A program made the position numbers and the translations under genes. A stretch of 64,000 nt of DNA from Siphonodentalium dalli (taxonomy: Eukaryota > Mollusca > Scaphopoda > Gadilida > Siphonodentaliidae). Positions 27,287 to 52,360 of this stretch are shown piece by piece. How positions within the stretch are numbered: the first letter of the stretch is position 1; each line of letters opens with the position of its first letter. The notes under the pieces are model-generated. The model worked only from the letters and a program-made list of their open reading frames with translations, was not told the DNA's origin and did no database searches. The DNA is taken from contig CP136062.1 of NCBI GenBank assembly GCA_032622095.1, positions 152,328,875 to 152,392,874 on the forward strand, read 5' to 3'.

Positions 27287-27588
27287 GATTATATCGCGTC
27301 CTAGAATCAGTGCATTAAAAATACAGGATTAGAAGGTTTATTTCGGCTCATACAGGACGTGTTTGTCATGTGTGATTATGCTTTTATTTAAATAGTTCCA
27401 GTTTCTTGGTTGAGGCGAACGTCACGTACGTCATTTTACGTCAACCAGATGCGTATGGAACGTACGTTCCATATGGATTTGTAAATATGGAACAGCAATA
27501 ACACTGTACTTCTAGGAACAAGCGTGTAATACAGAAACACATATATAGGTATATGAGTTTAACCCTTTACCCAACAGAACGGCCCTGT

Positions 27589-27657
27589 GCCAATGCATTC
27601 TCTTATATATGCGAGTCGACCATAGGTCACCTCGCATATATAAGAGAATGCATTGGC
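27589..27657. repeat. 69-bp hairpin
   Basis: Arms of 33 bp beginning GCCAATGCATTCTCTTATAT pair almost perfectly around ATA within GACCATAGGTC. Inverse twin of the hairpin at 27,737. Confidence 0.9.
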
Positions 27658-27736
27658 TTAACACATTAAAAATTATAAAATTGTTAAAGAATGTAAGAAA
27701 AAATGGTAAAAAGTGTTAAAAAAAGATTTTTTTTAG

Positions 27737-27805
27737 GCCAATGCATTCTCTTATATATGCGAGGCGACCTATGGTCGACTCGCATATATAAGAGAATGCA
27801 TTGGC
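27737..27805. repeat. 69-bp hairpin (inverse twin)
   Basis: The same arms as the hairpin at 27,589, in reverse complement as a unit (GCGAGGCGACC TAT GGTCGACTCGC in the centre). Confidence 0.9.
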
Positions 27806-28045
27806 ACAGGGCATAACTGTAACTATCACAATGTGGTCAAGGACCGGTTCCAATGATATCCATATTTGTATGGTTCTATTGAGACAGACCGAAGATATTT
27901 TAGGCTGTTGAAGCTTTATTTGGCCGGTTTTGTTGAGTAAAGGGTTAATCAATCTGATAATACACATGTAATGTATGTGATGTGGCGGAACGATGACCTG
28001 AATAGTCAGAGGTGATGCTCTATAGATATAGACACTCAAGATGGA

Positions 28046-28629
28046 ACTGAGTAAGCATACTTTGTTAGTGAATCGTGGTGTCTTATATACTATTTGGGGT
28101 GCATATTAAATGAGGTACTTTTTGGTAATACACATCAGGATTGGTTCTTCAGTTATGGTAGTGGCCCACAACCATATTTTGAGGTGGTGTTTCATTTATG
28201 ATAATCGGTGTTCGAGGTTGGACGTGAGGTCCTTGGAGGGCCGAGAGTCTGCTATTCAGGTCTATGTTCCATGTTTTAGTTGATATGATTATTGCTACTG
28301 GTCCTTGAATCAAGCGGTATGAATCTAGTGGGTGTTATAGTAGATGTATAGGTAATTACATGACACAGAACAACAATATACCAGGCAAGAAGATGATTCG
28401 TAATGTCAAACACTGGATGATAATTCTGGAAAATTGAGGTCCCCTGAATACTAACGTCGTTTCAGCCACTAAATCACATCACGACTGAGAACATACGAAT
28501 ATAAGTGGAATACCTAATAAATAACAAAGAAATTAAATTAGATTCACCAAGGCTTCACATCGGAATATGTAAAGTAGGTTCTAACATCTGATTTTCCTTT
28601 GACAAGATAATTATAATATTTGATGAATC
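28046..28629. other. Interior of the 1.87-kb element, no gene seen
   Basis: AT-rich with no open frame of interest. GTTTCAGCCACTAAATCACATCACGACTGA at 28,458 weakly resembles sequence near 47,250. Confidence 0.4.
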
Positions 28630-28861
28630 TGACGTGCGCCTTTATAAATGCGCGAAGTTGACGGTCGGTGGGTGACACAGAAGGCCATCTTTAACCCATC
28701 CGACAGCATCAACACACTAATGTTGTGTGGTGTCTTCCAAAGTTAATTGTTTCTCTTCAAGCATCGTGTCAAACTTTACAAACTCATATATCAACATATG
28801 TTTCTGAGAGTCGAAACGCCTTTTGAGATTTTATCGATTACTTGTTTTGGAGCATATGTAC

Positions 28862-29250
28862 TTAAATGCCCAAAACATTCAATGTCGATGAATGTTTGCA
28901 TCGATTGAAGGTCAAAATAAAACTGTTCAAAGGAACTTTTTGTCCATCAACTGTCGTTGAAAATATGCGGACTTCTGTCACTGCCTGTGGTGTCAACTCA
29001 GCCAATATTTCTGATTCAGAAGAATCAGCTACTCCACGGTTTCTCAACACAGCTATGGTACTATTAAATGTCTTGTGAGCAGTAACCAACAGTGTTATTT
29101 GTCAATTTGTGCAATATATGTTGACCACCCACTGGCCCAGCGTGATTGGTTTGACATATTTCAATTGCCAGAAATGCTGTGTAGTGTTTATCAATGACAC
29201 ACACAGAAGGTCGCTTGAGCGTCGAATCAAAGCCAAGAACCAGGTACTTG
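28862..29250 (-). pseudogene. Non-LTR retrotransposon ORF1 (gag-like) remnant
   Basis: Read on the minus strand, a single frame from about 29,389 to 28,862 is broken by one TGA (29,102-29,104). Downstream of that stop it encodes VTAHKTFNS, then SESEILAELTPQAVTEVR, then DGQKVPLNSFILTF. This matches the layout of ORF1 'gag-like' proteins of jockey-type LINEs: a V-T-x-H-x-x-L/F-N-S block, an E-I-x-x-E-L-x-x-x-x-V-T-x-V block, and a D-G-x-x-x-P-x-N/S-x-x-x-L-T-F block. Upstream of the stop, RRSSDLL resembles the usual RSGDLL segment. The zinc knuckles expected next are missing; a TAA follows shortly. It is a dead fragment, assigned from remembered family patterns. Confidence 0.6.
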
Positions 29251-29389
29251 TGATATAACCAGTAACTTTGGAACTTAGCGAGTCACCACTCTTACGATCA
29301 ATGCGTTGGTTATTGGTTTGAGTTGCCATATGAAAAGCAAATAATAGACAACAAGCCCAACAGCCCACTTGGACTACCCTTCTAATCAT

Positions 29390-29974
29390 GGTCGAGGCAA
29401 CGACTGGTGCATAGCTGAAGCGGTGACCCTTTTAGCCACTTCATACAGCAGCCGCACAAAGTGCGACAAGCGTGAAAAGCACTACAGATTTAAAAAAATA
29501 GGAATCATCAATACGAAATTCAAAGAGACATAACACGACAGAAACAACATACACGAAAAACACAAAACATAACTGCAAACATCAGGAAAACAATACAACA
29601 GATGACAGAATTCGATCGAAAACACTGGGAAGCCAGTTGATGCAGCCGGGTCAACTCAACAACCCGCATTGAAGAGATGTAGGACTAAAGTGCATGGGCC
29701 ATGATGTACTAGTAAGCCATATCCGAATGTCGATGTCTCCCGTGATAAGGCCGCCATAGTACTACCAGAACTGCTACACCATATCTCGCGGGTGCAACCC
29801 ACGACAAACAGATGCAACATTATGGGATTCTTATCCATCGCAGTGGGGCGTAAGGCATATTCTAGCCGATTCCATCCGGTGAATTAAGACGTTATGTTTC
29901 TTGGTCGTGAAATACAAGATCAAAGAATTTGCACTTACGCGATCGGGTTTAGTACATTGAATGGTCCCTGATAG
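29390..29974. other. Gene-free sequence
   Basis: No repeats or coding evidence. A 60-codon minus-strand frame (29,656-29,838) has no recognisable motif. Confidence 0.45.
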
Positions 29975-30080
29975 CGTATAGAACACTCGTAACGTATTCA
30001 AACTCTTACTAACTCTCTAATCGATGCATGTAATCTGCAATCATAATATTAAATTGGATACCACACCTCTATATTAACGA
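29975..30080 (+). repeat. Diverged dispersed repeat, copy 2
   Basis: Partner of 5395-5495 (TCTCTAATCGA, GTAATCTG, ATTAAATTGG, TACCACAC in the same order). Confidence 0.5.
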
Positions 30081-30289
30081 TTGTCGGTAATGCATCATGC
30101 AGTGAAGTACAATAGAAGATATTGTTGATTGCTAATTGCCATTTCAGCTTGGAAAATACAGTAGTCGTCTCCAGCTATGACTGTTGGTAACTGTAGTTCA
30201 TGGTTCATAACCCGTCAGCACGATCATGTTGAAAGCCATGTTTTGGTTGAGTTCACATTCGCTCAAGACGCTATCATGGATATTACGCC

Positions 30290-30680
30290 CAGGGCTGCAA
30301 CGATTCAGACCTCCACGATGCGCTGCGTATCGCGATTTTATTATCACGATACGATGCGCATCACGATGCAAATTTTTGGCAACTGACGGCTGTGAAAACT
30401 ATATGAACCACTTAATCATTTTTAGTATGTATATTCTCATCAGTCTTCACCTCGGCATATTCATTGAAGTAAATTACATGACCTAACTAAAATGACCAAA
30501 TGCATGGCCGGGTATCACAAGTATACTATTATAGCTAATACAGTCCCCACATCAGCCCAGATGTGAAATTTTCAGTGGCAAAGTTTGTATCTCTGACTAT
30601 TGATAACTCGGCATACATAGCACCCTCCCACAATGCATCGTGATATTTAAAAGCGATGCATCGGAATCACCAGGGCCTGG
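30290..30680. mobile_element. hAT-like element remnant
   Basis: The left end CAGGGCTGCAACGATTC resembles the termini of many animal hAT non-autonomous elements (established pattern). The right side has GCGATGCATCGGAATCACC followed by AGGGCCTGG, a degenerate inverse. Subterminal CGATGCGC / GCATCGTGAT motifs occur at both ends. I could not find a clear 8-bp target duplication and there is no transposase. Confidence 0.35.
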
Positions 30681-30959
30681 ACCACTCCAATTTACATAGA
30701 AACCACATAATTAATAATTAATTTACAAACTTTGCGAGGTGCACGAATAAGATTATACCATGCGAGGAATCCCCGTTTATCGTGAGTAGAACCGACTCCA
30801 CTATGTCGCGATTCGCCTTACTAACTACAGGATGCTCAACTCTGAGATAGACCATTACAGTTCTCTATAGGAAATTGTGTTTCCAATCAAATGAGTAGTA
30901 AATGTCGGGTTCCTCGAAATGACATCACACAAACGTCAAGTCCAATATTACATGATATG

Positions 30960-31340
30960 ATTACATGAGCTAACTCTGCTAACCGGGACAACTCGGTGTT
31001 CCGGGTGCCCCGGTCCCATGTGCTTATCAATAAGAAGGATGGTGCGCTGCTACATGAGCCTGGACAACTCCGCAAGCCGGATAACCTGCCCGCCTGGCCG
31101 GGACAACTCGGTTAGCCGAAACAACTCAGCTCATCTAACAGCGAGTCATCCGGCTAGTGGAACATAATAACACGATCTGTTGTTACTTGATATGACGTCA
31201 GCCAATAGAATGTTCGCGTCGTGTAAATGAAGTTTCGTAGTCACCACATGTTCGTGTTAAACCGAGGTGTCCCTGCTAGCAGAATTTTCCAGTCTCGTGG
31301 AACAGCGCGACCGAGTTATCCCGGTAAACCAAGTTGTACC
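30960..31340. repeat. Cluster of CCGGGACAACTCGGT-like motifs
   Basis: A GC-richer island with the motif near 30,983 and 31,097, weaker forms near 31,060 and 31,118, and an inverse form (ACCGAGTTATCCCGG) near 31,310. TACATGAGC precedes two copies. The purpose is unknown. Confidence 0.55.
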
Positions 31341-32092
31341 TGCTCATGAAATAAGTCCCGTAACCATTTCTATACTAAATACTCATTGATGAATAGCTAT
31401 AAGTTCAGCAAACGTCGTTTGTTGAACTTATTATCTGAACAATTCTCACCAAGGAATAGGAATAATTTCTCTATTGTATTCGCATGTCTGGCGTCTGCTT
31501 TTACTATACATGAACACCCCTCAAAATTAAAATTATACCATTCCAATGTATACTTTTATAACCGAGTGGGAGAATCCATTCAGTATAGAAAGTGTTAAAC
31601 AGAAACGCGTGGAATCCAGATTTCGATTTCAGCCCTATCGTGCCTCGTCGATCACGAACAGCGCATCGCGCGGTTGTAAAAACGGATGTGCAGCTATTAA
31701 CTTCTGAACCTCCTTAAAATTAAATGCATTGAAAAGGCTATTAGTTTCCCCGGCAACGTCTTCGTTTCAATTATTCAGTGTGTAACAGTGTTGGCCATAA
31801 CCAACATCCGTTTGCTTAATTTTGGAGATTAGTATGGGTCGCTGTTTGTTGTTCGGAGCCAATTCAGTTGGCTCGTTTGGCTATCCGATCTGGCTTTGTC
31901 TCTCAAATTTTCAGATACATTTAATCCTCGGTATCAAAATATACGATATTTCCATTTCATTATGAAGATTTTTCTCGCCTTTTGCTGTGTCTTTATCGTG
32001 TTAATTGTCGGAGAATTTTAAAGATGGTCTGTCTTTTACTAACATGTTTTATATAGTTTTCGGGGCATATATAGAGGATATGAAATGAGCCG
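31341..32092. other. Gene-free sequence
   Basis: A 70-codon plus-strand frame at 31,386-31,598 shows nothing recognisable. The remainder has no repeat that I can name. Confidence 0.45.
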
Positions 32093-32212
32093 GTGTTTCT
32101 CTCATATGATATTTATGAAACGAGTCTCAGAATTTTCAGTTTTCTCGAGCCTCTGACGAGAGAAAACTTAAAATTCGTGACGAGTTTCATAAATATCATA
32201 TGAGAGAAACAC
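32093..32212. repeat. 120-bp hairpin, head of a rep-C relative
   Basis: GTGTTTCTCTCATATGATAT pairs with its inverse ending at 32,212, with arms of about 54 bp around GAGCCTCT. It is followed by ATTCTATTTATCATATGA and GTCCAAAAC, mirroring the hairpin-then-tail plan of rep-C although the arm sequence differs. Confidence 0.8.
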
Positions 32213-32726
32213 GAATTACATATTCTATTTATCATATGACACCTATAAATTGATTATGATGTCCAAAACGCACACAAATAACCAAATAGCTATATGACAT
32301 CGGCAGCAAAAGGTTAACGTGACGTCACTTCATTGCACCGGAAGCCCAATTACACCTGGTGAACTAGCAGACATAATATGCACGCGAAGATATAGTGCGC
32401 TATTCTGTTCTCAGTTTGTGACATTACATCGTATGTTTATTAGATAAATACGAATTACATATTCTATTTATCGTATAATAATGTCCAAAACTATATATTT
32501 CAAGATTATAATTGCGAGAATTTCTGCATCGCGTTGATTGACGCGCACGAATTTGACCTGCATTTAGTAAGAGATGCGGCTCGGCCCAGGCTGTCATTCA
32601 GCCAATCAGAACACACTTTTTGTCAACAAACCAATCAAATTATCGGAAGGTGATATGAACTAGTAGTTCATATGAAATTGATTTATGACATACTTTCCAA
32701 CGTAAATAATGATTGAGTCATATGAT

Positions 32727-33185
32727 AAGTAGAGGATCTACAACGAGTCCCCAGTTCATATGGGATTTACTAAACGAGTCTAGTAAATTCTGTCTGGACC
32801 GATCCTTTCGCGAGGTACATACCTAATTTACTGGACGAGTTTTGTAAATTCCGCTATAAACTTGAGACTCGTTGTAGATTATATTTATTACATTATCCAA
32901 AACATCGATAAAACATACTTGAATCAACAAATGGGACGTGAAACTAACATCGGCTTATATAAAGCACATGCGATGATGTTTCATATAGCTGTGGGTTGTT
33001 TTCCCGCAAAAAGAAATAGTCCCAGATAAATAAAGACTCTGACGTATTTAGTGGCGTATATTTAATGAAATAACTTTTCAAACTCTTCATTCATTAGAGT
33101 TTGTTGGAAAACTATTGGAAGCCACAGTATTTTGAGTCGACAAACCGGAAGTCAAAGGTAACCTGGCACTATTTCCTGTAGTCCC
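32727..33185 (+). repeat. Rep-C, copy 2
   Basis: AGAGGATCTACAACGAGTCC, the inverted head, then AACAAATGGGACGTGAAACT, AATAAAGACTCTGACGT, GAGTTTGTTGGAAAA and CACTATTTCCTGT in the same order as copy 1. It ends at CCTGTAGTCCC. Confidence 0.8.
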
Positions 33186-33519
33186 ACAGGTATCTCCGAT
33201 GCTGAATATAGGCTCACAAAGGGAGCCTGTTTCAGCTAGGTTAGTATAATAGAAGTAAGTTGCTCCAGTAGACTAATATAAGTGGTATGGAATATGTTAG
33301 ATAATGGGCTGGTTGACAGACTAATCAGGAAATAGTTAGAAATTAAAAAAAATTGTGTATTCTGCACAATGACCTTGGTTTACAAATGATCAGCAATGTA
33401 TAAAACATTTTTTTTTTCAATTAAAACAGCTTCTGACACAGGTTAAACGGTTATTTGAGCTAACTGAGATCAATCCCAGTCACATGAGTGATATCAGTAG
33501 AGTTTTATGCGATTTTAGA
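33186..33519. other. Gene-free sequence
   Basis: AT-rich, with T- and A-runs near 33,408 and 33,346. Nothing recognised. Confidence 0.45.
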
Positions 33520-33650
33520 CCAATTTTAGTGACATTTGGGGGGTGGGTGTCAAACAATTGGGACTGGGGGTGGTGGGTCCCAGAAAATGCCAGATGCCAA
33601 AAAACGGCATACGTTCCTGCAAATTTTTTACTACCCCCCCTGCTTTATAA
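33520..33650. repeat. Fragment related to the G-run element
   Basis: Contains TTTGGGGGGTGGGTG and then AAAACGGCATACGTTCCTG, a T-run and ACTACCCCCCCTGCT, resembling the right end of the element at 4636-5185. Confidence 0.5.
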
Positions 33651-34179
33651 ACAATTTGTTGTAATTGTGACCCGGATCAACAAATTAAATACAGACCTAG
33701 CTTCTTACTGGTTCGGGTCTCCCATTTGCGACAGTGTGGCGACACGTGCATAAAAAATACATAAATGTCAGCGGAACTTTGAACATGACTATAAAGCTTG
33801 GATAACATCACTGTAAATAAATGAAATTAAGTTTACTAGTCCAAATTACTTGACATAAATACCTCTACAAAATCAGGGGACATTAAAATTACGAAAGATA
33901 ACTCTGGACAAACAGAAAATTAATGATACGGTCAGGGAATCGTCACGACATATATCCGGCCACTGTAAAATCACAAAATACAGAGTCAACTACTGCAACA
34001 CAAGAGGAGTCAGAATGTATATGATTTATGTCTATAAGCTACCATCTCTGATATTGTACATAGCTGTTTGTATATACACACGTCTAACTATTATCAATAT
34101 CATGTAACATTTGATAAGAAAAATAAAGCATGGACTAGAGGGACCAACATTAAGAAGCCGATTAGCGCTTTGTTGTCGG
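33651..34179. other. Gene-free sequence
   Basis: No repeats or coding regions supported. Confidence 0.45.
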
Positions 34180-34332
34180 TTAACCCTTTACCCAACAAAA
34201 CTGCCAAAAACGCCCAAATAAATCTTCAACAGCCTAAAATATCTTCGGTCTGTCTCAATAACACCATAAAAATATGGATATCATTGAAACCGGTTCATTG
34301 ACCACACTGTGATGGTTACAGTTATGCCATGT

Positions 34333-34401
34333 GCCAATGCATTCTCTTATATATGCGAGTCGACCATAGGTCGCCTCGCATATATAAGAGAATGCATTGG
34401 C
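34333..34401. repeat. 69-bp hairpin
   Basis: Same sequence and geometry as the hairpin at 27,589. Confidence 0.9.
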
Positions 34402-34529
34402 CTAAACAAAAAATTTCTTACATTCTTGAACAATTTTATAATTTTTTCTTACATTTGTTAACAATTTTTATATATATATAATATTTTTCTACATTCTTTG
34501 ATAATTTTATCATATTTAATATGTGTTAA

Positions 34530-34598
34530 GCCAATGCATTCTCTTATATATGCGAGGCGACCTATGGTCGACTCGCATATATAAGAGAATGCATTGGC
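34530..34598. repeat. 69-bp hairpin (inverse twin)
   Basis: Same as the hairpin at 27,737. Confidence 0.9.
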
Positions 34599-34897
34599 AC
34601 AGGGCCGTTCTGTTGGGTAAAGGGTTAATCGATCCTGCTCGTAATATTGTGTTCATGTATGTCATACAAGTGTAAAACCCGAAGAAGCGATGATTCTGTT
34701 CGTCTTGCTAATGCATAATGCGACATCGTACCATTGTGTTGCTGGTGCTTGGATTAGTTGTCTCAGGCATCAATGTTGAATACATTTATACCATAATATA
34801 TGCTGCAGAAAGATCTCACATCGCCGACATCATCTCAGTTATCAAAACTACGAAACTATGTGATCTGATGAAAAACACAGGAAAAGATTGCTGATGC

Positions 34898-36285
34898 TCA
34901 GATATATTGTTGGTTAGATAAGGTTTCCTTCGTCCCCAGATGCATGGGATGTCGATGAAAACAGATATTGTCAGCCCTCCACATGTCCTGTTGGCTATTT
35001 TAATTTAAGGGGGATAACTGATCCTCAGGGGAACCAAAAGTACGCCCATGTAACTATGACCGGTGCGCGCTACAGAGGTTTCATCGCATTGTTTAAACAA
35101 AATCAATCATTCCTCCATCAATAGCGCGGCGATAGGTGGTAGTCTCGTACCTGGTCCAGAGGCTCCGCTCATTATTCCCTGCAACTCCACGACGCAAAGC
35201 TTCCGCCGAAGCGTTATGCATTCGCGTAGAGGGAGCTGAGCGCTAGGAACGAGTCCAGATTTTAAGTGCTATAGTGACTGAAATCATAACATGCAGATAT
35301 GTTGCTCGAAGCTTACCGGCGTCGCAATCCTCTCACGACGACCGATAATATGAAAAACAATTAAATTATGTGAGCCCATGCATATAGATTAGTTATACTG
35401 GCATTCTTATAGTAGTTAGTTAAATCAAGTTTCCTTCGTTGTCTACAACATGCATGGGATATTGGTTACGATAGGCGCTGGCAACACACTACCTGTTGGT
35501 CATTCTAATTAGACGTCTGTGGAATAAAACTCTGTGATCCCATTCACAACCTTATCATGATGGACTAGGAAACCAGTTCCTGTAAAAATTGGGCACCAGA
35601 ACCATAAAACATCCCCATTTCTGGAAGTGTCTTGCAGCTACCTTCCTCTTCCATCGCGATACACCTATTTGATACACATATAATGTACACAATGATATGT
35701 ATGACGACAGCATGATCAGCCGGTGTTACTCTTCTGTATTATTTTGTTGACATGTAGATAGACGAAGGGTCGCTCTGGGTTACGAGTCAACCCTTCATTC
35801 TAGTATTTTCCTGCTAGTCCAGGACTAGTGTGGTGTTTGGGCACCCTGTTTTAATTTATTAGTCTGACAACTCCTTTGTCATGTTGGCATAATCCATAAA
35901 AACATAATAGATCGGTTATGATATGCGCCGACAACACACTTATACATGTTGACCATTCTAATTAACGACTTATGTGGGAAAAACTCAGTGATCCCATGCG
36001 CAATGTTGACAAAGACTGGCTTTGTAAAGCACTCCGATCTATTGTTGGTCATCGGATCAAGTTTCCTTCGTTCCCTGGACCATGATATATCTGTGAAAAC
36101 AGATATTGGCGTCTGTCATTAATTAAAGAATTGTGTCGCAGAATAATTGATCATCGGGGAAACCAAAGGTACGCCCCGTGTAATTATGACCGGTGAGCTG
36201 CAGAGGTGTCATCTCATTTTTCCAACAAAATCAATTTTGGCTACAAAGCCTGACATCTGCGCGTCAATAAACCAGACGGTTGACT
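34898..36285 (+). repeat. Diverged internal duplications
   Basis: 34,900-35,115 resembles 36,045-36,240 (ATTGTTGGT, TTTCCTTCGT, GTGAAAACAGATATTG / ATGAAAACAGATATTG, GGGGAAACCAAAGGTACGCC). 35,400-35,555 resembles 35,905-36,000 (GGTTATGATATGCGC, ACAACACACT, GACCATTCTAATTA, TGATCCCAT). These are two old repeat modules, each present twice in direct orientation. No coding frame. Confidence 0.6.
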
Positions 36286-36602
36286 GGTGGAATGTCATCA
36301 GATTGATATAATTATCGGGCGACATGTCCAATACTCCCAACAGGCTATTATAAAGCATGCCTCACTTTGACACGTGCTGAACACATGATTAAGTGTCTCG
36401 TCATATCACAATTACTGAGTATGACATGTATTAGTGCAGTAAACAACACATTACATATAGGGGCGGTATCTCAGTCGCATAGGTGCTTACATGATTAGGC
36501 AGTCTTCAAGCCGCCCAGTGATAGCGAAACTGCTTCCATTCTTGATAAGCGAGAATTAGTAAATCACTGAAACCGTATCCATATTGCCAGATTGTCATAA
36601 TG

Positions 36603-37895
36603 TGTTAACAAATCGTGAACACCTTCTGGTATGCGAGCATCATGGTCACGGGTTGCTAATGAATCCAGGCGCTACCATCCCATTTACCAGCGCCGTGACC
36701 ACTTCATTCACGTGGTGTTAATGAAACCCGGTCACCACCCAACTTGACAGCGCCGTGACCACGTCATCCACGTGGTGTTAACGTATCCAGATCACCATCC
36801 CATTTACCAGCGCCATGACAATGTCATTCACGTGGTGTTAATGAAACCCGGTCACCACCCAACTTGACAGCGCCGTGACCACGTCATCCACGTGGTGTTA
36901 ACGAATCCAGATCACCATCCCATTTACCAGCGCCATGACAACGTCATTCACGTGGTGTTAATGAAACCCGGTCACCACCCAACTTGACAGCGCCGTGACC
37001 ACGTCATTCACGTGGTGTTAACGAATCCAGGTCACCATCCCATTTACCAGCGCCGTGACAACGTCATTCGCGTGGTGTTAATGAAACCCGGTCACCACCC
37101 AACTTGACAGCGCCGTGACCACGTCATCCACGTGGTGTTAACGAATCCAGATCACCATCCCATTTACCAGCGCCATGACAACGTCATTCACGTGGTGTTA
37201 ATGAAACCCGGTCACCACCCAACTTGACAGCGCCGTGACCACGTCATCCACGTGGTGTTAACGAATCCAGATCACCATCCCATTTACCAGCGCCATGACA
37301 ACGTCATTCGCGTGGTGTTAATGAAACCCGGTCACCACCCAACTTGACAGCGCCGTGACCACGTCATTCACGTGGTGTTAACGAATCCAGGTCACCATCC
37401 CATTTACCAGCGCCGTGACAACGTCATTCGCGTGGTGTTAATGAAACCCGGTCACCACCCAACTTGACAGCGCATTGGTCACGTCATTCACGTGGTATTA
37501 ATGAATCCAGGTCACCATCCTGTTTACCAGCGCCGTGACGACGTCATTCACGTGGTGTTAATGAAACCCGGTCACCACCCCCACTTGACAGCGCCGTGAC
37601 CACGTCATGCACGTGGTGTTAATGAATCCAGGTCACCAGCGCCGTGACCACGTCATCCACGTGGTGTTAATGAATCCAGGTCACCATCCCGTTTACCAGC
37701 GCCGTGACCACGTCATTCACGTGGTGTTAATGAATCCAGGTTACCATCCCGTTTGACAGCGCCGTGACCACGTCATTCACGTGGTGTTAATGAATCCCAG
37801 TCATCATCCCACTTGACAGCGCCGTGACCACGTCATTCACGTGGTGTTAACAAATTGTGAACACCTCGTTTCCGAGCACCACGATCACCCGTTAG
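36603..37895 (+). repeat. 60-bp tandem array with CACGTG in each unit
   Basis: About 20 units of 60 bp. Two unit types alternate (TGAAACCCGGTCACCACCC and CGAATCCAGGTCACCATCCC), giving a 120-bp dimer. Each unit contains a palindromic pair CCACGTCATTCACGTGG, i.e. an E-box core (CACGTG) beside an ACGTCA half-site. Both array ends carry the same degenerate unit (GTTAACAAAT.GTGAACACCT). The 120-bp dimer is most homogeneous in the middle and decays toward the right end. Confidence 0.93.
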
Positions 37896-38023
37896 TAGTA
37901 GTACTGGCCCCTCCATAGACCTCCGTAGGATTCTCATGTTGAGAACTGACTATATGTGCACTTCAATAAGTAGGTTATATGCTTTCAAAAAATAATTGGG
38001 TAGACATCAAACAAAGTTGCTGG

Positions 38024-38037
38024 ATTGCCATGGCAAC
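38024..38037. promoter_or_regulatory. X-box-like (RFX) motif
   Basis: ATTGCCATGGCAAC is one base from the symmetric RFX X-box GTTGCCATGGCAAC (established consensus). No promoter or gene is visible nearby. Confidence 0.35.
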
Positions 38038-38210: not shown

Positions 38211-38584
38211 GATCGAATACCACCGAGGATGGGCTTAGTCAATGTCTATCCTAGCCATTGCAGGAGGCAACGAATATACCATCTATTTAGAAGATACCAC
38301 CATGCCACATATCTAACAATGGACCAAATATGAGGTCATGGCATCAAAGCTACCTGTCAATCCTTTACTGCATTCAGTCATTGTTTGAAACTAATACATG
38401 TATTGGGACGCATTGTGTTTTTGCTTCTGAACACAGGTATAAGAAGATCCTATCACGATAAACCGATAATTATAACAATATACTCACACATACTAATAAT
38501 ATATGCATTGGAATTATATATTTTAGTTTATTTTTATTATTTATTTATTAAACATCCAGGGACAAACCTTGGTGCCGTTTCCAT

Positions 38585-38935
38585 GTTTTGGTTATACGGG
38601 GAAAGTATCCGACCAACGCCTAGGGAGGGGAAGTGCTGCCTGATTTACATCTTACAATATGTGATTAGGAGTTTGGGTTGGGCAAGTATCTGCCCAGCGA
38701 CTTGAGAGGGGAAGTGCTGCCCGATTTACATCTTACAGTATGTGATTAGGGAGTTTGGGTTGGGCAAGTATCTGCCCAGCGACTTGAGAGGGGAAGTGCT
38801 GCCCGATTTTAATCTTATAATATGTGATTATGGTGTCCGGGTAGGGCAAGTATCCGACCAGAGTCTAGGGAGGGGAAGTACTGCCCGATTTTCATTTTAT
38901 AATATGATTATGGGGTTCGGGTGGGGAAAGTATAG
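38585..38935 (+). repeat. 82-bp tandem repeat, about 4 copies
   Basis: The marker AAGTGCTGCC recurs at 38,631, 38,712 and 38,794 (AAGTACTGCC at 38,876), i.e. a period of 81-82 bp. Each unit has GGGCAAGTATC, GAGAGGGGAAGTGCTGCC, GATTT and TATGTGATTA. Two overlapping plus-strand frames of 77-106 codons are made of the repeat. Confidence 0.92.
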
Positions 38936-39420
38936 GGACCTTTCGCCAAATCACGAACACAGTTACGGACATTGAAATATCCTGCCATTACACGGCCAAA
39001 ATTCGATCTTTACGCACGGGGATTCGTGACGAAATATGCCTCACTCAGTTTAATTATGTGCAAATATGTCAAGGATGTGCCACCGGTCCTTCTTGTTGCG
39101 CTCTAACATTATCCGCATGGTGTATAACACACGGATAAGAACATGGGACCTGAAAGAAACACACATTACTTTTTCCATGAAATATATGTGTAACTGAATA
39201 TAGTGGGAATATGCCGTCTCACCAATTAACCATCGTAGGTAAATTGTGATGTTGTCCACCTTACTAGGACAATATATCATATCCGTAATCGTAATTGTGA
39301 TTTGCAAAAGGTCTCTATTAATGAATCCAGGCCACATTGTGGACATTTACATGTACCGTGTCTGCATGCACAGGCCATTCTTTTTGTATTACATATAACT
39401 AAATACCTATAGGCGTGAAC
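38936..39420. other. Gene-free sequence
   Basis: A 98-codon minus-strand frame (39,050-39,346) has no recognisable domain. No repeat is recognised. Confidence 0.45.
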
Positions 39421-39988
39421 TAAATAGAGGATCTACAACGATTCCCCAGTCTATAGCGGAATTTACAAAACGGGTCCAGCAAATTAGGTCTGGACGAGCT
39501 TTGGTTAGGTCCAGACCTGATTTACTGGACGAGTTTTGTAAAATCCGCTATGACGTGGGGACGAGTTGTAGATTATATTTATTACATGATCCAAAACCTC
39601 GATTAACATACTGAAATCAACAAATGGGACTTGAACTAACATCAGCTTCTTTAAGGCCTGCGATGACGTTTTACGTAACTATGTGTTGTTTGCCCACATG
39701 AAGCAATATTCCCAGATAAATACAGACTTTTTGACGTATATAATGGCGTACATTTAATGAAATAACTTTTCAAACTTTTCATTCATTAGAGTTTGTTGGG
39801 AAAATATTGCAAGCGATAGTATTTTGAGACGTAAAGTACGGAATGTAAACAGACAACAAACCGAAAGTTAAAGGTCACCTGGCACTATTTCGTGTTATTA
39901 AATGAATGTTTAATATTCCAATCTATAGAATGGGTTTATTGAATGGAATAAAATGGTAGGATAATTTAATAAAAATAAATACTTAATC
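39421..39988 (+). repeat. Rep-C, copy 3
   Basis: The fullest copy. It has AAATAGAGGATCTACAACGA, the inverted head, AACAAATGGGACTTGAACT and GAGTTTGTTGGGAAAA. It then extends through GAATGGAATAAAATGGTAGG to AATAAAAATAAAT, the 3' limit also reached by copy 1. Confidence 0.82.
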
Positions 39989-39995
39989 GGAAGGG

Positions 39996-40025
39996 GTGAT
40001 TATATATTGTTTGATATATAATCAC
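39996..40025. repeat. 30-bp hairpin just after rep-C
   Basis: GTGATTATATAT pairs perfectly with ATATATAATCAC around TGTTTG. Confidence 0.8.
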
Positions 40026-40412
40026 AACAACAGGGACACACGTGCAGGATCACTCTATTAAATCAAGATAAATCAACGACCAATATTTACTAAGAATAAG
40101 TGTTTTAAGATTGATCTTAGTAGTAATCGAGGATTAATGTTGAATAAATAACCGAAATATTTGATGAAAGTGTTTTTAAAGACTGTTTCCCTAACCTCCC
40201 CCATGAACACCCACCCAATAGGAAAATTTAACTTATGCATGACCAAAGTTGATGACGTGTTAATTCTTTCATACAAATCTCCGTTATTTAGTCACAGTAT
40301 GTTCTATATAGAGTTGTCACCCTTCCTGATTAGCGTAGGTATGCGAGTTTTTATGCATAATCGTACGCACGTGTTCCCTGGTGTCCGTTTATTATATTAA
40401 TTTCTCTTTATT

Positions 40413-40802
40413 ATGGGCCGGATTAGATATATTTTTATATCTAACGAGATGCGTATCAGGTGGCGTGCAACACGATCACGTATAGTGTTACCAAATCATG
40501 GCTATATCTCGCACGCGTACACACAGATTACGTTGGGTTACACCACTGGTCGATTGATCCTGCTAATTTGCTATTATGTTGGGTTTATATTTTATGCCAA
40601 TTATGACAAAGGGGATGTTGGGTCTAATAACTTAAAACACGGTGCACAATGCCACATAGGCCCATCGGACAGGCAGGTGCAAACCAGTATGAAGAATCAA
40701 CTGACAACAGAGAAGCGAACTCTTGGCTCTCTACAAGTCAACAAAGGCATACAGAGTAGTAAAACTGCTGATTTTTCTGTCGTCGTACATATAATGTCTT
40801 AA
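40413..40802 (+). CDS. Unrecognised 129-codon open frame
   Basis: The longest open frame outside a tandem repeat. It starts at ATG and ends with TAA. The sequence is basic in the N-terminal third (RIRYIF, RIRWRATRSR), has one hydrophobic stretch around residues 48-62 (LILLICYYVGFIFYA), and a polar, Lys/Ser-rich C-terminal half. I recognise no domain. Composition matches the surrounding AT-rich DNA and there is no visible splice or promoter context. Most likely chance; a small single-pass membrane protein is the alternative. Confidence 0.12.
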   Translation: MGRIRYIFISNEMRIRWRATRSRIVLPNHGYISHAYTQITLGYTTGRLILLICYYVGFIFYANYDKGDVGSNNLKHGAQCHIGPSDRQVQTSMKNQLTTEKRTLGSLQVNKGIQSSKTADFSVVVHIMS

Positions 40803-41690
40803 AATTATATGAATATAAAATCAGTGCATGCATATCGTGATGGAAGATGAAAGTAGCTGCACGTCATATGCAATAAATGGGGATGGTTTTAGGGTTCTGG
40901 TTGTAGCAGAGTCACTGGGCGTTTTTGTCCTGTCCTTATTTTCCTTCCGTTTCCTTTCCTTCCAATATTTTATTCTATGAATCGTGGCGACGTATTCTAT
41001 AGAAACAGATGTATGACTGGAAGATGACGAAAGCACACATACCGGTTCCAGAATTCTGGTCCAGTATGTATAGGGAATGGTCAATTTTGTTTGCAATAGC
41101 AAGTGACATATGTTTAAACTTTTTTTGTGGTTTTTCCTGGGTTCACCATGTACAGTGTACTTGAATGGCCAAATGGTCTACACGCCTAATATAACTTAGT
41201 GTCATTGTTGTCGTCACATCCTATATGTACCCTATGCAATGTTGTGATACTGCGTATCAATATGTAATAAATTGTTTATATAACTTATTTCGCAGGTACG
41301 TACAGGAATCAACCTCACCATGTCTTGTGACCAACATTCCCACGAGAGGACATCCCTGTAATTGTTCCAGTTTGAGTACACACTGTACTTTTACAATAAT
41401 CTGACTGTCGAAGTTTGATAATCTCTAGGTTTTGGTAAACTTTAATAATTTGGAAGATTCTAGTGATGGAACAGACTCCATGGAAACATCGTTCTGTTGC
41501 ACTGTTGCCCAATTTGTATAGGTACTTGTTGTTCCCTCGTCCATCATGATAAAACGTTGTGAGTCATGATCCAGGAGCGGTTTACACAAACTGGGAAATT
41601 GATTTGGAAAATACATACCAAAATAAGTTTTAAATATCCAAAACTAATCATTTGGAACAATTACAAATGTTACTCATATTTTTTAAATGG
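40803..41690. other. Gene-free sequence
   Basis: Contains a pyrimidine-rich stretch (40,930-40,965, TTCCTTCC type). Short frames of 63-93 codons on the minus strand show no recognisable product. Confidence 0.45.
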
Positions 41691-43191
41691 TCGCAATGAC
41701 ACCCCTGTATCTGTTAATGTCGAATGACACATGTATCTGTTAATGTCGAATGACACATGTATCTGTCAATGTCGAATGACACCCCTGTATCTGTTAATGT
41801 CGAATGTCACACCTGTATATGTTAGTGTCGAATAACACACCTGTATATGTTAATGTTGAATGACACACCTGTATATGTTAATGTTGAATGACACACCTGT
41901 ATATGTTAATGTCGAATGACACACCTGTATCTGTTAACGTCGAATGACACAACTGTATATGTTAGTGTTGAATGACACACATGTATCTGTTAGTGTTGAA
42001 TTACACACCTGTATATGTTAATCTCAAATGGCACACCTGTATCTGTTTATGTCGAATGACACACATGTATCTGTTAATGTCGAATGACACACCTGTATAT
42101 GTTAGTGTTGAATGACACACCTGTATATGTTAATGTCGAATGACACACCTGTATCTGTCAATGTCGAATGACACACCTGTATCTGTTAATGTCGAATGAC
42201 ACACATGTATATGTTAATGTCGAATGACACACTTGTATATGTTAGTGTTGAATGACACACCTGTATATGTTAATGTCGAATGACACACCTGTATCTGTCA
42301 ATGTCGAATGACACACCTGTATCTGTTAATGTCGAATGACACACATGTATCTGTTAATGTCGAATGACACACCTGTATCTGTCAATGTCGAATGACACAC
42401 CTGTATCCGTTAATGTCAAATGACACACTGTATCTGTTTATGTCGAATGACACACATGTATCTGTCAATGTCGAATTACACACCTGTATATGTTAATGTC
42501 GAATGACACACCTGTATATGTTAGTGTCGAATAACACCTTGTATCTGTTAATGTTGAATGACACCTGTATATGTTAATGTTGAATGACACCTGTATCTGT
42601 TAATGTCGAATGACACACCTGTATCTGTTATTGTCGAATGACACACCTGTATCTGTTAATGTCGAATGACACACCTGTATCTGTTATTGTCGAATGACAC
42701 GCCTGTATATGTTAATGTTGAATGGCACACCTGTATATGTTAATGTCGAATGACACACATGTATCTGTTAATGTCGAATGACACACCTGTATCTGTTAAT
42801 GTCGAATGACACACCTGTATATGTTAGTGTCGAATAACACACTTGTATATGTTTATGTTGAATGACACACCTGTATCTGTTATTGTCGAATGACACACCT
42901 GTATATGTTAATGTCGAATGACACACCAGTATCTGTTAATGTCGAATGACACACCTGTATCTGTTAATGTCAAATGGCACACCTGTAACTGTTATTGTCG
43001 AATGACACACCTGTATCTGTTAATGTCGAATGACACCTGTATCTGTTAATGTCGAATGACACACCTGTATCTGTTAATGTCGAATGACACACCTGTATCT
43101 GTTAATGTCAAATGGCACACATGTATCTGTTAATGTCGAATGACACCTGTATCTGTTAATGTCGAATGACACCTGTATCTGTTAATGTCGA
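41691..43191 (+). repeat. 28-bp minisatellite, about 53 copies
   Basis: The unit is GTCGAATGACACACCTGTAT followed by CTGTTAAT. Variants include ATATGTTA for ATCTGTTA, GTTGAA for GTCGAA, and 26-bp units lacking one CA. Substitutions are scattered through the array, indicating an older and less homogenised array than the 57-bp satellite. Confidence 0.95.
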
Positions 43192-43371
43192 AAACTAACT
43201 CGCGTTTTCTGCTATATATTTACGCGATATCGAACACTTTTCGATGCAAACTAATGTATTATTGTTGGTAATGTCTTTGCATTAGTATGCTGTTGATATT
43301 GGGCCTACCATCCTCGGGAAGGTAATGGTTATTGTCCCTGCATGTTCTGTTGTTGTCACGCCATGGAGTTT
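43192..43371. other. Unique flank of the minisatellite
   Basis: No feature seen. Confidence 0.4.
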
Positions 43372-43600
43372 GAACTTATAATAGGATTTGTTCATAACGG
43401 GCTTAGAATCGCTTCATTTTGAGAGTCATTTTAGTGCCAGTATGATGTACTCATATTTACTTATTATAAGTTTATTGTGAGCTGAAATTAACAGGAATTA
43501 ATAAACCAACTCACGTCTTACCATGCAGATGCACGCTCTATATAATGTGTTTTCACTATGTCCCGCGCAAGTCAACAAAATAACGGTTATAAGTCCAATA
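43372..43600 (-). repeat. Rep-B copy, inverted
   Basis: ATAATGTGTTTTCACTATGTCCCGCGCAA is the inverse of the GCGGGCCGCAGTGAAAACAT segment of rep-B. GTTATAAGTCCAATATGGGC also matches the inverted rep-B copy near 3260. Confidence 0.5.
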
Positions 43601-43733
43601 TGGGCTTCTTCCTTTGCACGAGGATATGTTGCATTGCCAGGTGAGAGGCAATTGCACCCATTCATGGTTATGGAGTTGTGTGAACTTAACCATTCAATGA
43701 CTGGGCTTTCCTGAAATTGCGCGAATACCCTGG

Positions 43734-43898
43734 GCCAATGCATTCTCTTATATATGGGAGTCGCACATAGGGAGCCTTGCACATATAAGAGAATACATTG
43801 GCCTAATCATATATACGTTGACATTCTAAGCCACTGAATTTTCTTATATATGCGATTCTCCGCATGGGAGACTCGCATATTTAAGAGAATGCAATGAC
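43734..43898. mobile_element. Degenerate paired-hairpin element
   Basis: Two decayed hairpins (43,734-43,802 and 43,830-43,898) with the same arms (CCAATGCATTCTCTTATATA in the first) but many mismatches, and a core of only 27 bp. Neither TTAA/CCCTTT nor the TGTGACCC termini are present. It is the oldest-looking copy of the hairpin pair. Confidence 0.7.
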
Positions 43899-44376
43899 AC
43901 AGGAACTTTAGTGTTACACCAGCGCAACTCCCACCATGAAAGGATTAAAATTAACCGCGTCTCGACGTACGTGCATCCACAGATGGGAATAGACCCGAAG
44001 TACGACAAATTGTGGTGCCACGTGACCACATCAAGCCAACGAAGAATGGCTATATTCAAATAGCAAGGTAGAGTTCTGTCCCCTCACTACGATGGTCAGA
44101 CCACTGCCATCACGTATTGAATGCATATGCTTTCCTAACATTTTTAATTAAGACTGTTGTCGGTTACAATTCATTCTGCGTTATTCAGACAAACAAAACT
44201 GTCCATATCAAATTTGAAATTGGCCGCATCATTGTTCGATATAATACCGCAAAATAGCCTGTCCCACAACGCCTATGCCGATTAGCCAGAAGTAAATAAA
44301 AACATGTTTCTGAAACGAGCTTGGTATACTTTCCACTAAAACTTGAATCAACTGGATATATCATACGTTAGACAAG
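43899..44376. other. Gene-free sequence
   Basis: Starts with ACACAGGAACTTTA, which recurs after the lone hairpin arm at 57,135. No coding region. Confidence 0.45.
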
Positions 44377-44788
44377 AAATAGAGGATCTACAACTCGTCC
44401 CCACTTTATAGCGGAATTTACAACTCGTCCCCACTTTATAGCGGAATTTACAAAACGAGTCCAGTAAATTTACTGGACTGTTGTAAATTCCGCTGTAAAC
44501 TGGGGACGAGTTGTAAATTATATTTATTACATGATTCAAACTTCGATAAAACATACTTAAATCAACAAATGGGACGTGACACTAACATTGGCTTCTATAA
44601 GGCCCGCGATCACGCTTCACGTACTATGACTATGCGTTGTTTGCCCGCGTAAATAAATAGTCCCAGATAAATAAAGACTCGCTGACGTATTTAATGTCGT
44701 AAATTTAATTAAATAACATTTCAAACTATTCATTCATTAGAGTTTGTTGGAAAAGGAATAAAGGTAGAATAGAATCATGTAATAAAAC
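44377..44788 (+). repeat. Rep-C, copy 4 (rearranged)
   Basis: AAATAGAGGATCTACAAC opens the copy. A 31-bp head segment (CAACTCGTCCCCACTTTATA and the next bases) is duplicated in tandem. The inverted arm is shortened, and the tail jumps from GAGTTTGTTGGAAAA directly to GGAATAAAGGTAGAA, skipping the segment present in copies 1 and 3. Confidence 0.8.
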
Positions 44789-45380
44789 GTGATTAGAAAC
44801 GACATACAGTGTACGTGGCAGCCATTTCCCGATTTTGTTTCTGTTCCAAAAATAGGCACTATAGCACGCGATGGCAGTGTGTGTCCAGCGTAGCGAGGGC
44901 ACAGAAATCCGCCTTGCAGTTTGTGATATCGTCTGAACTTCGTGCACCAGTCCACGATCACGTGGGGTTAACGAATCATGTCATATTCCCGTCTGTGCGC
45001 ACCAATATCACGTGGAATTATAACGGATCACGACCAATTATCGTCTTCGTGGTTCCATGCCATTTATCACGTGCTATTACCTCAATATCACGGAATTTGC
45101 TGCTCCGTGGACCCCGATCGCAAATGTGAATCCCGATCGTCAGTTTGATAGCACAAAAGCACACATCAATGACAACAAAGCCAGACGATATAACGATAAT
45201 GGAGAATTAAAAGCTTTTATTATTACATCCATTTACTCTGAAGGCAAATCTTTTGAAAGCGATGCGCATTGGATATTATACTTAATTGTATTAAAGGATC
45301 GACTTTCATTGTAGGGTAACAAAAGTCATAATGACACGAGCATTAACGTTGATTTAGTATGGCATTATAGCGGGACTACA
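44789..45380. other. Gene-free sequence with several ATCACG/CACGTG motifs
   Basis: ATCACGTG or close variants occur near 44,958, 45,010 and 45,066, and ATATCACGGA near 45,090. A 106-codon frame (44,809-45,129) begins at GTG and overlaps these motifs; I do not accept it as a gene. Confidence 0.4.
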
Positions 45381-45434
45381 TATGTGACCCGCCATATCAA
45401 ATCCAGTCGTAAGTCGGGATTTTGTTTACACTGT

Positions 45435-45502
45435 GCCAATGCATTCTCTTATATATGCGAGTCGCCATAGGTCGCCTCGCATATATAAGAGAATGCATTG
45501 GC
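45435..45502. repeat. 68-bp hairpin
   Basis: Same arms as the hairpin at 27,589, with one base missing at the loop. Confidence 0.9.
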
Positions 45503-45720
45503 CTAACAATTTTTTATCATTTTTTTTAAATAAATGTTTCTTACAATTTTTAGGACATAAAATAAAAAACATCCATTACCCTGCAGGGAGCCCCACACAT
45601 ATATAGAAGCATATAGAAGAGTGTCGTCTGCTCATGTTTGTCTGGGGCTCTGTATGGGTGAAATTATAAAATTGTTAAAGAATACAAGAAAAAATTATTA
45701 AAATTGTAAAAAATTGTTAG

Positions 45721-45789
45721 GCCAATGCATTCTCTTATATATGCGAGGCGACCTATGGTCGACTCGCATATATAAGAGAATGCATTGGC
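45721..45789. repeat. 69-bp hairpin (inverse twin)
   Basis: Same as the hairpin at 27,737. Confidence 0.9.
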
Positions 45790-45880
45790 ACAGGGTAAAA
45801 AAAATCCCGACTTACGACTGGATTTGATATGGCGGGTCACATATATATATCAAACACATTCAATCGAGTGGATGGTCTGT

Positions 45881-45995
45881 GACAAGATAGTCTCGTGAAA
45901 ATAGGTTCACACTGGACCCAGATATTCACATAGGGTCACACTGGAGTTATGTGGTTCTGAAATAAGCCATAGTGGATGTATACCCGTTATTCCCA
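45881..45995 (+). repeat. Rep-B fragment
   Basis: ATAGGTTCACACTGGA, ATATTCACATAGGGTCACA and CCGTTATTCC follow the rep-B order. It lies just after the TA-flanked element. Confidence 0.5.
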
Positions 45996-47229
45996 CACCT
46001 GGATAAGTGGTCCTGCTAATATGCTATGATGCGGGTAGGACAAACTGATGCCGTTACGAAAAAGTACCCTTATGTTTTCTAAAGTTGTCATTTTCGCGGT
46101 GTTTGGCTAATCCGAGCGTTTTAAGGATAAAACCAATGTGTGTATGAAACACCCAAGAACATATATATTTTTTGAATAGTATAATAATGCCTGCGCTTGT
46201 CATTCTAAAACGACATGAATAACCATCTTGACTATAGTCGAAACGAAGGCGGTTGATAACGGAATGAAGGCAGCAGTTCATTCAGTGGGTGTCGTTCTAA
46301 TTCAGCCACCGGTCATATCACGCACGACGCGATCAGTGGTCAGTTTATTTGTGGAGGAAAGCGACACAAAGGGTTAATTTTACTGGATTGTTTGTTTACT
46401 TAGGGTTTAAAGTGACGTGTTCCGAACATAATAAGGTACAATAATGCAAAAAATAATCTATTTGCATAAATTTGATATCCAAATAGTAATAAAAAAGTGT
46501 CAGTGTTATAAACTAAATACACGCAGTGAGCCAGTGACTATTATTGGCACGATCTTTGTCGTAGTGTTTATGCCCAATAACGCGTCTCGAATAAGTAACA
46601 AGAAAACCATAGTCAGAAATGGCAACGCCACCAAGATCATATTATTAGCCATAAATATAAATTATAATATAAAATATATTGGTTACATGAATGCACCGCC
46701 TCAGAATTCCGTTAAATAATACATGTAGTTATATACTGCAACCATAAGACATCCAGCGAATACACACCCCACGAAAACCCGAAATGTGTTGTTCTGCAAG
46801 ATATCCCATCGCTATAGCTCAATTTGACAAGGCCAGATTAGCTTTTCTGCACTATCCTAAAACAATAAAGCTTCTCAAATCATCGGCATATAGTCAATAG
46901 AACTTTCACGAACTTGGCCATTCCAACTACAGCTTTTACCGGACTCGTGGTCGCAGTACAACTTTAATGCGTCCCAAAATAACCGGAAAAACAATTATCT
47001 ATTTAAAAACCTATACATAGGACCATGGATTTCTATAATTTGGCCAACAGTATACACCGGTGGCATTAATAACTAATTACATGTTTGCGTAGTTTAACCG
47101 TTGTGTTCTCTGAAATGGTATACAGTCGATGTGGTTGGTATTTCCGATAATCTTAGTTCACTGTTACATTCTTCCAGTGGAGATATTGTTTTGATTGTAA
47201 CTTATCGGTTTTATTCAATGAAATAAGTC
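45996..47229. other. Gene-free sequence
   Basis: No repeats that I can name. Frames at 46,054-46,281 (minus, 75 codons) and 46,444-46,719 (plus, 91 codons) lack recognisable domains. The complement of the latter reads as hydrophobic peptide (LVALPFLTMVFLLLI), which AT-rich DNA easily produces. Confidence 0.45.
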
Positions 47230-48145
47230 AACACTATGTCTTTAAAGTCGCTTTAGCCACTTCTGTCCATATCACGACTGACAAGACTGAATCAAGAATA
47301 AGCAAAGCAACTGTGAAGAGTAAACTGTGAATTAGATTAAAAACAACGACATATCTATAAACTAGAGGCCGAGCATGATCCTCATGTTTAACCCATACAT
47401 CAAACGAGAGGCCGATCACGATTGTTCAGTTAGGTTTTAATGTCGTTTTAGCCGCTATGCCATATCACCACTGAATTAGAGGTGTGACTGTCCGAATGGG
47501 ACTAAGAATACCCCCCGTGTTTTTAAAATACTAAGATGTTTCACATGTCAGTAAACATTTAGATAAAATAATAAAATAACAGTTCCCATTGCAGGTGCAC
47601 AACCCTAACCCTAATCTTAAACATATTGACCAAAAAATTTAGGAATAAAAGTTCTAAGTCGAAAAAGGGGAATAACTCCACAAAAACAAGTCGGACAGAC
47701 ATCATAATCGCAGGTGCACAGGTTCCCATGGTACTAAATATCAGTGCCAAGATTATAAAACATTGACCTAAAAATGTAGGAATAAAAGCTCGGACAAAAT
47801 TATGCATGTTGCAAACAAATTTCTAAGTCGAAAAAGGGGGATAACTCCACCAAAAAAAGTCCGACAGATGTCATAATCGCAGTTACACAGGTTCCCATAG
47901 TGGTTGATGTCTGTGATAAGTTGCACGGAAATTGATAAAAAAAAAGACTGAGAAAAACTCCGGACAAATTTGAGTCGACGGACGGACGAACGACGGACGG
48001 ACAAGCTGATTCCAGTATACCTCCCTAACTTTGTTGCGGGGGTATAAAGAAACTGAAGCAAGATAAACGAAGCAACTGTGAAGAGGAGACTGAATTCAAA
48101 CGAGAGGCCGACCATAGTCGTCTGATGTTTAACCCATACATACAA
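47230..48145. repeat. Modular dispersed repeat of molluscan type
   Basis: Modules recur within the block: AGCAACTGTGAAGAG with AACGAGAGGCCGA at 47,306-47,413 and 48,069-48,112; CTAAGTCGAAAAAGGGG with ATAACTCCAC at 47,662 and 47,822; GCAGGTGCACA / CACAGGTTCCCAT three times. It ends in GACGGACGGAC runs followed by ATACCTCCCTAACTTTGTTGCGGGGGTATAA. Such modules are ubiquitous in mollusc genomes in my experience. The 125-codon minus-strand frame is repeat. Confidence 0.6.
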
Positions 48146-48514
48146 CCATACCGAATCATCGACTATACAGTCGAAATCATCAATCTAGAACAGAATATAT
48201 ATCTGTTCACGAAAGACTGACTGGAATGAGAGTTTACATGGCATAGAACTAGAATTTATCGACAAAATGTTTAAATCAAATCAACCAAATTACCCTAATT
48301 ATACAGGGCAGGGGTTTGTCATCATAAACTAGCTGTGCCATGAGATATAAACACTTCCAGATGACAAATCAGATAGCATGAATATGGACGGATGGAAGAG
48401 GGTTAATATTTCCCAATCGTTCATCATAGTATTGATTTAGATGTGCTAATGTGGCTCAATAATCATTGGAACCGGTTCATTGACCAAATTGTGATGGTTA
48501 CAGTTATGCCCTGT

Positions 48515-48583
48515 GCCAATACATTCTCTTATATATGCGAGTCGACCATAGGTCGCCTCGCATATATAAGAGAATGCATTGGC
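48515..48583. repeat. 69-bp hairpin
   Basis: Same as the hairpin at 27,589 with one arm substitution (CAATACATT). Confidence 0.88.
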
Positions 48584-48676
48584 CTAAATAAAATCTTTTT
48601 TTAACACTTTTTACCATTTTTTCTTATAATATTTTCTACATTCTTTGACAATTTGATAATTTTTAATATGTGTTAA

Positions 48677-48745
48677 GCCAATGCATTCTCTTATATATGC
48701 GAGGCGACCTATGGTCGACTCGCATATATAAGAGAATGCATTGGC
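48677..48745. repeat. 69-bp hairpin (inverse twin)
   Basis: Same as the hairpin at 27,737. Confidence 0.9.
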
Positions 48746-49009
48746 ACAGGGCCGTTCTGTTGGATGAACAACTATAAGTCTCATTTGTACTTATTTTTCC
48801 AACCTCAACTTTGATGATATTAATTATACTGAAAACAATTTTTGAAGCCTTACAAAAGTGGCTTTGATGTTATAACAGATGTACTCTAAACATTGTGGAT
48901 ATTGGTATTATGCTCATGATTAATCTATTATTAATTAATGTATTTTGTGCTAGTAAGTCAACATACCAAATATAGACTTATTAAAGTTATCACGGAAACT
49001 AAAACAAGA

Positions 49010-52358: not shown

Positions 52359-52360
52359 GT

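Follow-up and report, generated by a model that had tools for sequence, protein, structure and literature searches.

A palindrome-pair cassette in TTAA-flanked elements and in an element with other ends in the scaphopod Siphonodentalium dalli

A 64,000-nucleotide stretch of the genome of the scaphopod mollusc Siphonodentalium dalli (assembly GCA_032622095.1, contig CP136062.1, positions 152,328,875 to 152,392,874; hereafter the window, in whose own numbering positions are given) contains small TTAA-flanked elements built around two near-perfect 69-bp hairpins. The comparison of their copies suggests that this hairpin pair is a cassette moving between elements, and not part of one piggyBac-like element. 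The same arrangement of hairpin, core and hairpin is found within a MITE-like element that lacks TTAA and has unrelated ends (C4), as well as in an older third context (C5), and is, therefore, not tied to the TTAA ends.

Two TTAA elements are intact. The first, C1, occupies 27,559-27,948 on the forward strand, with TTAA at 27,559-27,562 and 27,945-27,948, and the second, C2 (34,180-34,628, reverse strand), lies in the opposite orientation, with TTAA at 34,180 and 34,625. The end sequence CCCTTTACCCAACA (in shorter written forms, CCCTTTACCC or CCCTTTACCCAAC) stands at all four ends of these elements, exactly at three of them, including both ends of C2, and with a single mismatch at the right end of C1 (14-nt ends at 27,563-27,576 and 27,931-27,944). 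A first-pass annotation of this DNA had assigned TTAA flanks and such ends to 27,563-27,944 and 34,184-34,624, which was confirmed apart from the mismatch, and had placed a further copy near 48,465. This copy, C3 (48,462-48,763, reverse strand), indeed keeps both hairpins (48,515-48,583 and 48,677-48,745) and has lost both ends. TTAA duplication on both sides characterizes both intact copies (2/2), C3 being truncated, and the 14-nt terminal inverted repeats of C1 and C2 agree with the definition of piggyBac-type ends (about 12-19 bp, with CC[C/T]T at the tip) in the available part of PMC2872659. When TTAA pairs 150-600 bp apart were scored for matching ends from position 25,901 of the window onward (n = 1,203), C1 and C2 ranked at the top, with 16.0 and 14.0 versus 8.5 for the next best pair. 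With their TTAA duplication and CCCT-type ends, C1 and C2 look like piggyBac-type insertions, as had been proposed, although the hairpins themselves do not define a TTAA element, as C4 and C5 illustrate. C1-C3 are most readily interpreted as non-autonomous, piggyBac-type (TTAA) miniature inverted-repeat transposable elements (MITEs). A 116-bp inverted repeat (97% identical; 26,875-26,990 and 28,630-28,745) brackets C1, and is perhaps a larger element that received it.

The cassette of C1-C3 measures 229-278 bp and consists of CCCTGT, a 69-bp palindrome, an AT-rich core, the inverted palindrome, and ACAGGG. In C1, hairpin a (27,589-27,657, forward; 31/33 positions paired) is followed by a 79-bp AT-rich core (27,658-27,736, forward) and by the 69-bp hairpin b (27,737-27,805, reverse; 32/33 paired), the reverse complement of a with one difference. 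The hairpins of C2 (34,333-34,401, forward, and 34,530-34,598, reverse; 32/33 paired each) enclose a 128-bp AT-rich core made of repeated units (34,402-34,529, reverse). Within any one of C1-C3, either hairpin is the reverse complement of the other with at most one difference, and 31-32 of their 33 positions are paired, compared with 20-22 in the best stretch of equal geometry from five Markov-shuffled windows; the first-pass description of two near-perfect, mutually reverse-complementary hairpins around an AT-rich core is thus borne out. Folding energies reach -50.9 and -54.3 kcal/mol for single hairpins (the latter for the RNA of the second C2 hairpin, whose DNA fold is at -37.8 kcal/mol) and -204.2 kcal/mol for the whole of C1 (z -23). 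The palindromes are set at unequal distances from the element tips, namely 26 bp (left tip to first hairpin) and 139 bp (second hairpin to right tip) in C1, and 26 and 149 bp in C2, an arrangement also found in piggyBac. The hairpin-plus-arm theme is echoed at 26,742-26,875 by a long hairpin (62-nt arms, 87%) of unrelated sequence, one arm of which recurs inverted about 390 bp away, at 27,194-27,249.

BLAST searches of the TTAA elements against the window yielded two more copies, at 45,429-45,795 and 43,728-43,904. The three copies of the first-pass annotation are real, and these two cassettes within the very range it covered had been overlooked. The former lies within C4 (45,377-45,847, reverse strand), an element without TTAA. 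Its 52-bp outer arms (45,377-45,428 and 45,796-45,847; GTGACCCGCCATATC...) contain GTGACCCGCCATATCAAATCCAGTCGTAAGTCGGGATTTT, with an exact GTGACCCGCCATATCAAATCC at 45,384 and the complementary sequence at 45,820, and have nothing evident in common with the CCCTTTACCC ends. The inverted repeat runs from these arms inward into the hairpins, over 88 nt that are 97% complementary. One hairpin (45,435-45,502, forward) has 68 bp, a base being missing near its centre, and the other (45,721-45,789, reverse) matches the consensus exactly. The cores of C4 and C1, both AT-rich, share a 53-bp local match (87%), so the whole cassette appears to be common to the two elements, beyond a hairpin alone; the C4 core is split by about 108 bp (45,553-45,660) without a match in C1. 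No TTAA is found at the ends of C4, which are flanked by ACATAT and ATATATAT, the nearest TTAA lying 83 and 325 bp from the cassette.

The latter copy, C5 (43,728-43,904, reverse strand), is an old, diverged cassette with a short core, in which each hairpin (43,734-43,802 and 43,830-43,898) has 26/33 positions paired. TTAA occurs 39 and 40 bp outside it, with weak end similarity (match score of 5.5); since a score at least as high was obtained by 27/1,203 TTAA pairs of the window and by 74/4,000 random pairs, the case for C5 as a clean TTAA element is weak. Outside the range of the first-pass annotation, a 38-bp hairpin-arm fragment with flank in common with C5 (C6, 57,114-57,151, forward strand, 92%) is duplicated at 63,879-63,916. 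That annotation had also held that its reading would fail if most genomic copies had no TTAA duplication. Locally, this applies to the cassette, with clean TTAA ends in 2/5 copies in the window (short fragments at 57,114 and 63,879 excluded), and does not apply to the two TTAA elements.

The hairpins are highly uniform. Compared with a single consensus, five of the eight hairpins of C1-C4 are identical to it, two have one substitution, and one has one deleted base. Between C1 and C2, substitutions amount to 1/138 in the hairpins, 0/30 in the left end, 11/143 in the right flank, and 17/79 in the core; the hairpins, thus, behave like the left end, and differ from the right flank in this single full-length comparison (Fisher p = 0.005). 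The corresponding values are 2/138 (hairpins), 3/79 (core), and 3/52 (retained right flank) between C1 and C3, and 1/138, 17/93, and 4/53 between C2 and C3. The C3 flank counts are trimmed, as the untrimmed ones (8/57 and 9/58) take in a non-homologous tail, and hairpin-core comparisons are affected by the poor alignment of the core, a variable AT-rich repeat. The earlier claim that the hairpins are the best conserved part, therefore, stands in direction, clearly so for C1 and C2, but is limited by the three copies available and by the C1-C3 comparison with the core, which is not significant. It may, as that annotation suggested, reflect a role in mobility, replication or silencing.

How such uniformity arises is constrained by C5, whose hairpins have six and seven pairs broken relative to the consensus, with changes that are mostly one-armed. 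Copies, thus, decay after insertion, and the palindromes are not kept perfect by local repair; consequently, the uniformity of the young hairpins must originate in their source elements, in a recent spread, or in exchange among copies. In-place self-repair of the palindromes was considered and found unsupported, as the private changes of C1 and C3 affect a single arm and C5 is decayed. In C5, both sides have changed at two centre positions yet remain paired, in three instances overall (pair 31 of each hairpin and pair 30 of one of them), a weak hint that symmetry was once maintained in an ancestor, although the pairs are too few to count.

The explanation proposed here, to which we would give about an even chance, is that C1-C3 are piggyBac-type MITEs mobilised in trans, whose interior cassette has passed between carriers and whose hairpins may act in cis as a dyad near the element ends. 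A piggyBac-family transposase recognising TTAA and the CCCTTTACCC ends would move C1-C3, and the slow change of the C1-C2 hairpins would reflect constraint in source elements or exchange among copies, rather than in-place repair. The passage between carriers is deduced from the sequence shared with C4 and C5, and it may have come about by nested insertion, or else through template switching or recombination at the palindromes. As to the role of the hairpins, the C-terminal cysteine-rich (zinc) domain of the piggyBac transposase forms a dimer that binds an internal repeat, a 19-bp palindrome, and in cells piggyBac requires an asymmetric arrangement of its two ends, according to the available portions of two structural accounts (PMC7351741, PMC11707139). 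The most likely role of the palindromes would be that of a cis-acting dyad near the ends; an overgrown palindrome could do the job of this internal repeat, which would account for a rate of change as low as that of the left end.

Several points weigh against this explanation. The TTAA family numbers three copies only, one of them truncated, and no transposase was seen, with 0 Pfam matches at E 0.01 among 113 open reading frames (ORFs) of the window of at least 63 aa. The C1-C3 contrast between hairpins and core is not significant (p = 0.36), and the trimmed flank differs by a mere three bases. The palindromes measure 69 bp versus 19 bp in piggyBac, with no common motif shown, and a piggyBac-specific role fails to explain the hairpins of C4, which has no TTAA. 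It is conceivable, though unlikely, that the palindrome pair is a promiscuous cis-acting mobility cassette, the dyad being bound by a host factor or by transposases from several superfamilies. Such a cassette would raise the transposition of any MITE capturing it, and would spread across families with unrelated ends.

The edges of the cassette bear on two of the rival explanations. In all three contexts (C1-C3, C4, and C5), similarity ends at an edge like CCCTGTGCC, and the four bases outside it, in C1 orientation, are ACGG/CATA (C1-C3), TTTA/TAAA (C4), and AAGT/TATT (C5). The cassette might be an independent TTAA (piggyBac-type) transposon with CCCTGTGCC edges, nested in other elements, inasmuch as CCCT, at times with one base changed, opens most of its edges, and the hallmark of piggyBac ends given in the accessible part of PMC2872659 is CC[C/T]T. 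However, TTAA is found at none of the six distinct junctions, and this most improbable candidate was rejected. The cassette could also be a passenger: a foldback MITE that landed in, or recombined into, the TTAA-family ancestor and, separately, the C4 carrier, with hairpins that do nothing. Their apparent conservation would then reflect small numbers or homogenising exchange between nearby copies. We regard this as a serious rival, although less likely than not. Only in C4 is the cassette flanked by TA on both sides, and there it lies between symmetric arms, as if inserted at a central TA; nevertheless, neither the TTAA family nor C5 shows a target duplication where the cassette ends.

The passenger explanation also gains from the presence in the window of several further long inverted repeats that do not belong to this family, from a contrast between hairpins and flank that is clear in the C1-C2 comparison only, and from the private hairpin changes of C1 and C3, which are not mirrored in the opposite arm. 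It is harder to reconcile with C1-C2 divergence that is about tenfold higher in the flank than in the hairpins, despite identical cassette junctions. Finally, the hairpins may give rise to double-stranded or hairpin RNA feeding small-RNA silencing of an autonomous relative, or of a host response, and be kept for this purpose. The very stable folds of the single hairpins and of C1 are what such a role would call for, but any near-perfect palindrome would fold likewise, and no Rfam match at gathering threshold was obtained in 26,000-64,000, which leaves this possibility quite improbable.

The closest precedent is provided by the CMITEs of the coral Acropora (Wang et al. 2010, PMC2872659), a group of TTAA MITEs whose families differ in their ends but have in common a conserved interior, which was proposed to be important for transposition. 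As described in the available part of that paper, CMITEs are likewise small, flanked by TTAA, and ascribed to piggyBac-like transposases; their ends are of the CCCTTT type, and in several families with different ends the common interior is better conserved than the ends. Here, the interior is common across different ends, although only one family is surely of the TTAA type. The CMITE interior is 75 bp long in elements of about 100 bp, and is not described there as a long palindrome pair. Relative to that account, S. dalli adds a shared interior in the form of a near-perfect palindrome pair, and a carrier, C4, which with its unrelated long ends and no TTAA falls outside the TTAA type.

Other known systems resemble the cassette in part, as far as the accessible text of the sources goes. 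piggyBac and piggyBat combine a TTAA target with palindromic internal repeats, placed at unequal distances from the tips in piggyBac (PMC7351741, PMC11707139), but these palindromes are of 19 bp (piggyBac), or short, imperfect, and confined to the left end (piggyBat), whereas those described here are of 69 bp and near-perfect. Drosophila Foldback4 is non-autonomous, with long inverted repeats and interior modules that vary from copy to copy through gain, loss, and repetition; however, its terminal palindromes exceed 400 bp and lie within a single family, and cross-family sharing with unrelated ends is not described in the part available (PMC2955051). The M1 and M2 repeats of Pithovirus are palindromic, MITE-like, and combined in a modular way, but belong to viral hosts, and TTAA ends are not described for them in the excerpt at hand (PMC10664404), the likeness drawn here being one of description. 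MITEs that are palindromic or bear tandem repeats have already been reported, judging from portions of PMC3212995 and PMC12628747. No published account of the present hairpin was found in the literature searched, most subscription journals being outside its reach.

The window is rich in other repeats, and its satellites and MITE-like repeats, along with the absence of recognisable genes, fit a eukaryotic origin. A 57-bp satellite forms a 19-kb array of about 332 units at 6,887-25,821, and a four-copy dispersed family headed by an imperfect palindrome some 160 bp long is found at 2,550-3,076, 32,725-33,187, 39,421-39,980, and 44,377-44,754. A further inverted repeat (68-nt arms, 94% complementary) lies at 52,160-52,227 and 52,296-52,363. 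A 27-bp satellite at 55,687-56,262 and 62,425-63,027 has a unit containing TAATATTAC, all 35 forward-strand occurrences of which fall within the 27-bp arrays, with none on the other strand. TAATATTAC corresponds to the nine bases of the geminivirus rolling-circle origin, possibly by chance. A relationship between this satellite and the hairpin, based on a common CGYATATATAAGAGA, was dropped, the nhmmer match not being significant (E ~1). Around the two arrays, 53,769-54,462 and 61,731-62,424, as well as 56,263-57,235 and 63,028-64,000, are 99.8-99.9% identical; judged by this identity, they were duplicated recently, and C6 is present in each copy.

The ORF set comprised 234 stop-to-stop ORFs of at least 50 aa, excluding those overlapping large tandem arrays or ending beyond 61,700; of these, the 113 of at least 63 aa mentioned above were scanned against Pfam. 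Pfam searches of seven ORFs at E 0.1 gave one match, far under its curated cut-off, and no tRNA was detected by ARAGORN with the bacterial code. Exact scans for the hairpin arm found none in viral contigs or prokaryote genomes, collections that say little here, and those for the TTAA end, the C4 end, the 27-bp satellite, and a second arm pattern found none in viral contigs, which is likewise weak as evidence.

The function of MITE interiors is poorly understood in general, as are the reasons for which certain MITEs are so prolific. A near-perfect palindrome pair common to elements with different ends constitutes a natural test case for MITE interiors. If the hairpins raise mobility, the success of MITEs would depend partly on an exchangeable internal enhancer, and if they have no effect on mobility, the case would show palindromes moving between elements by recombination.

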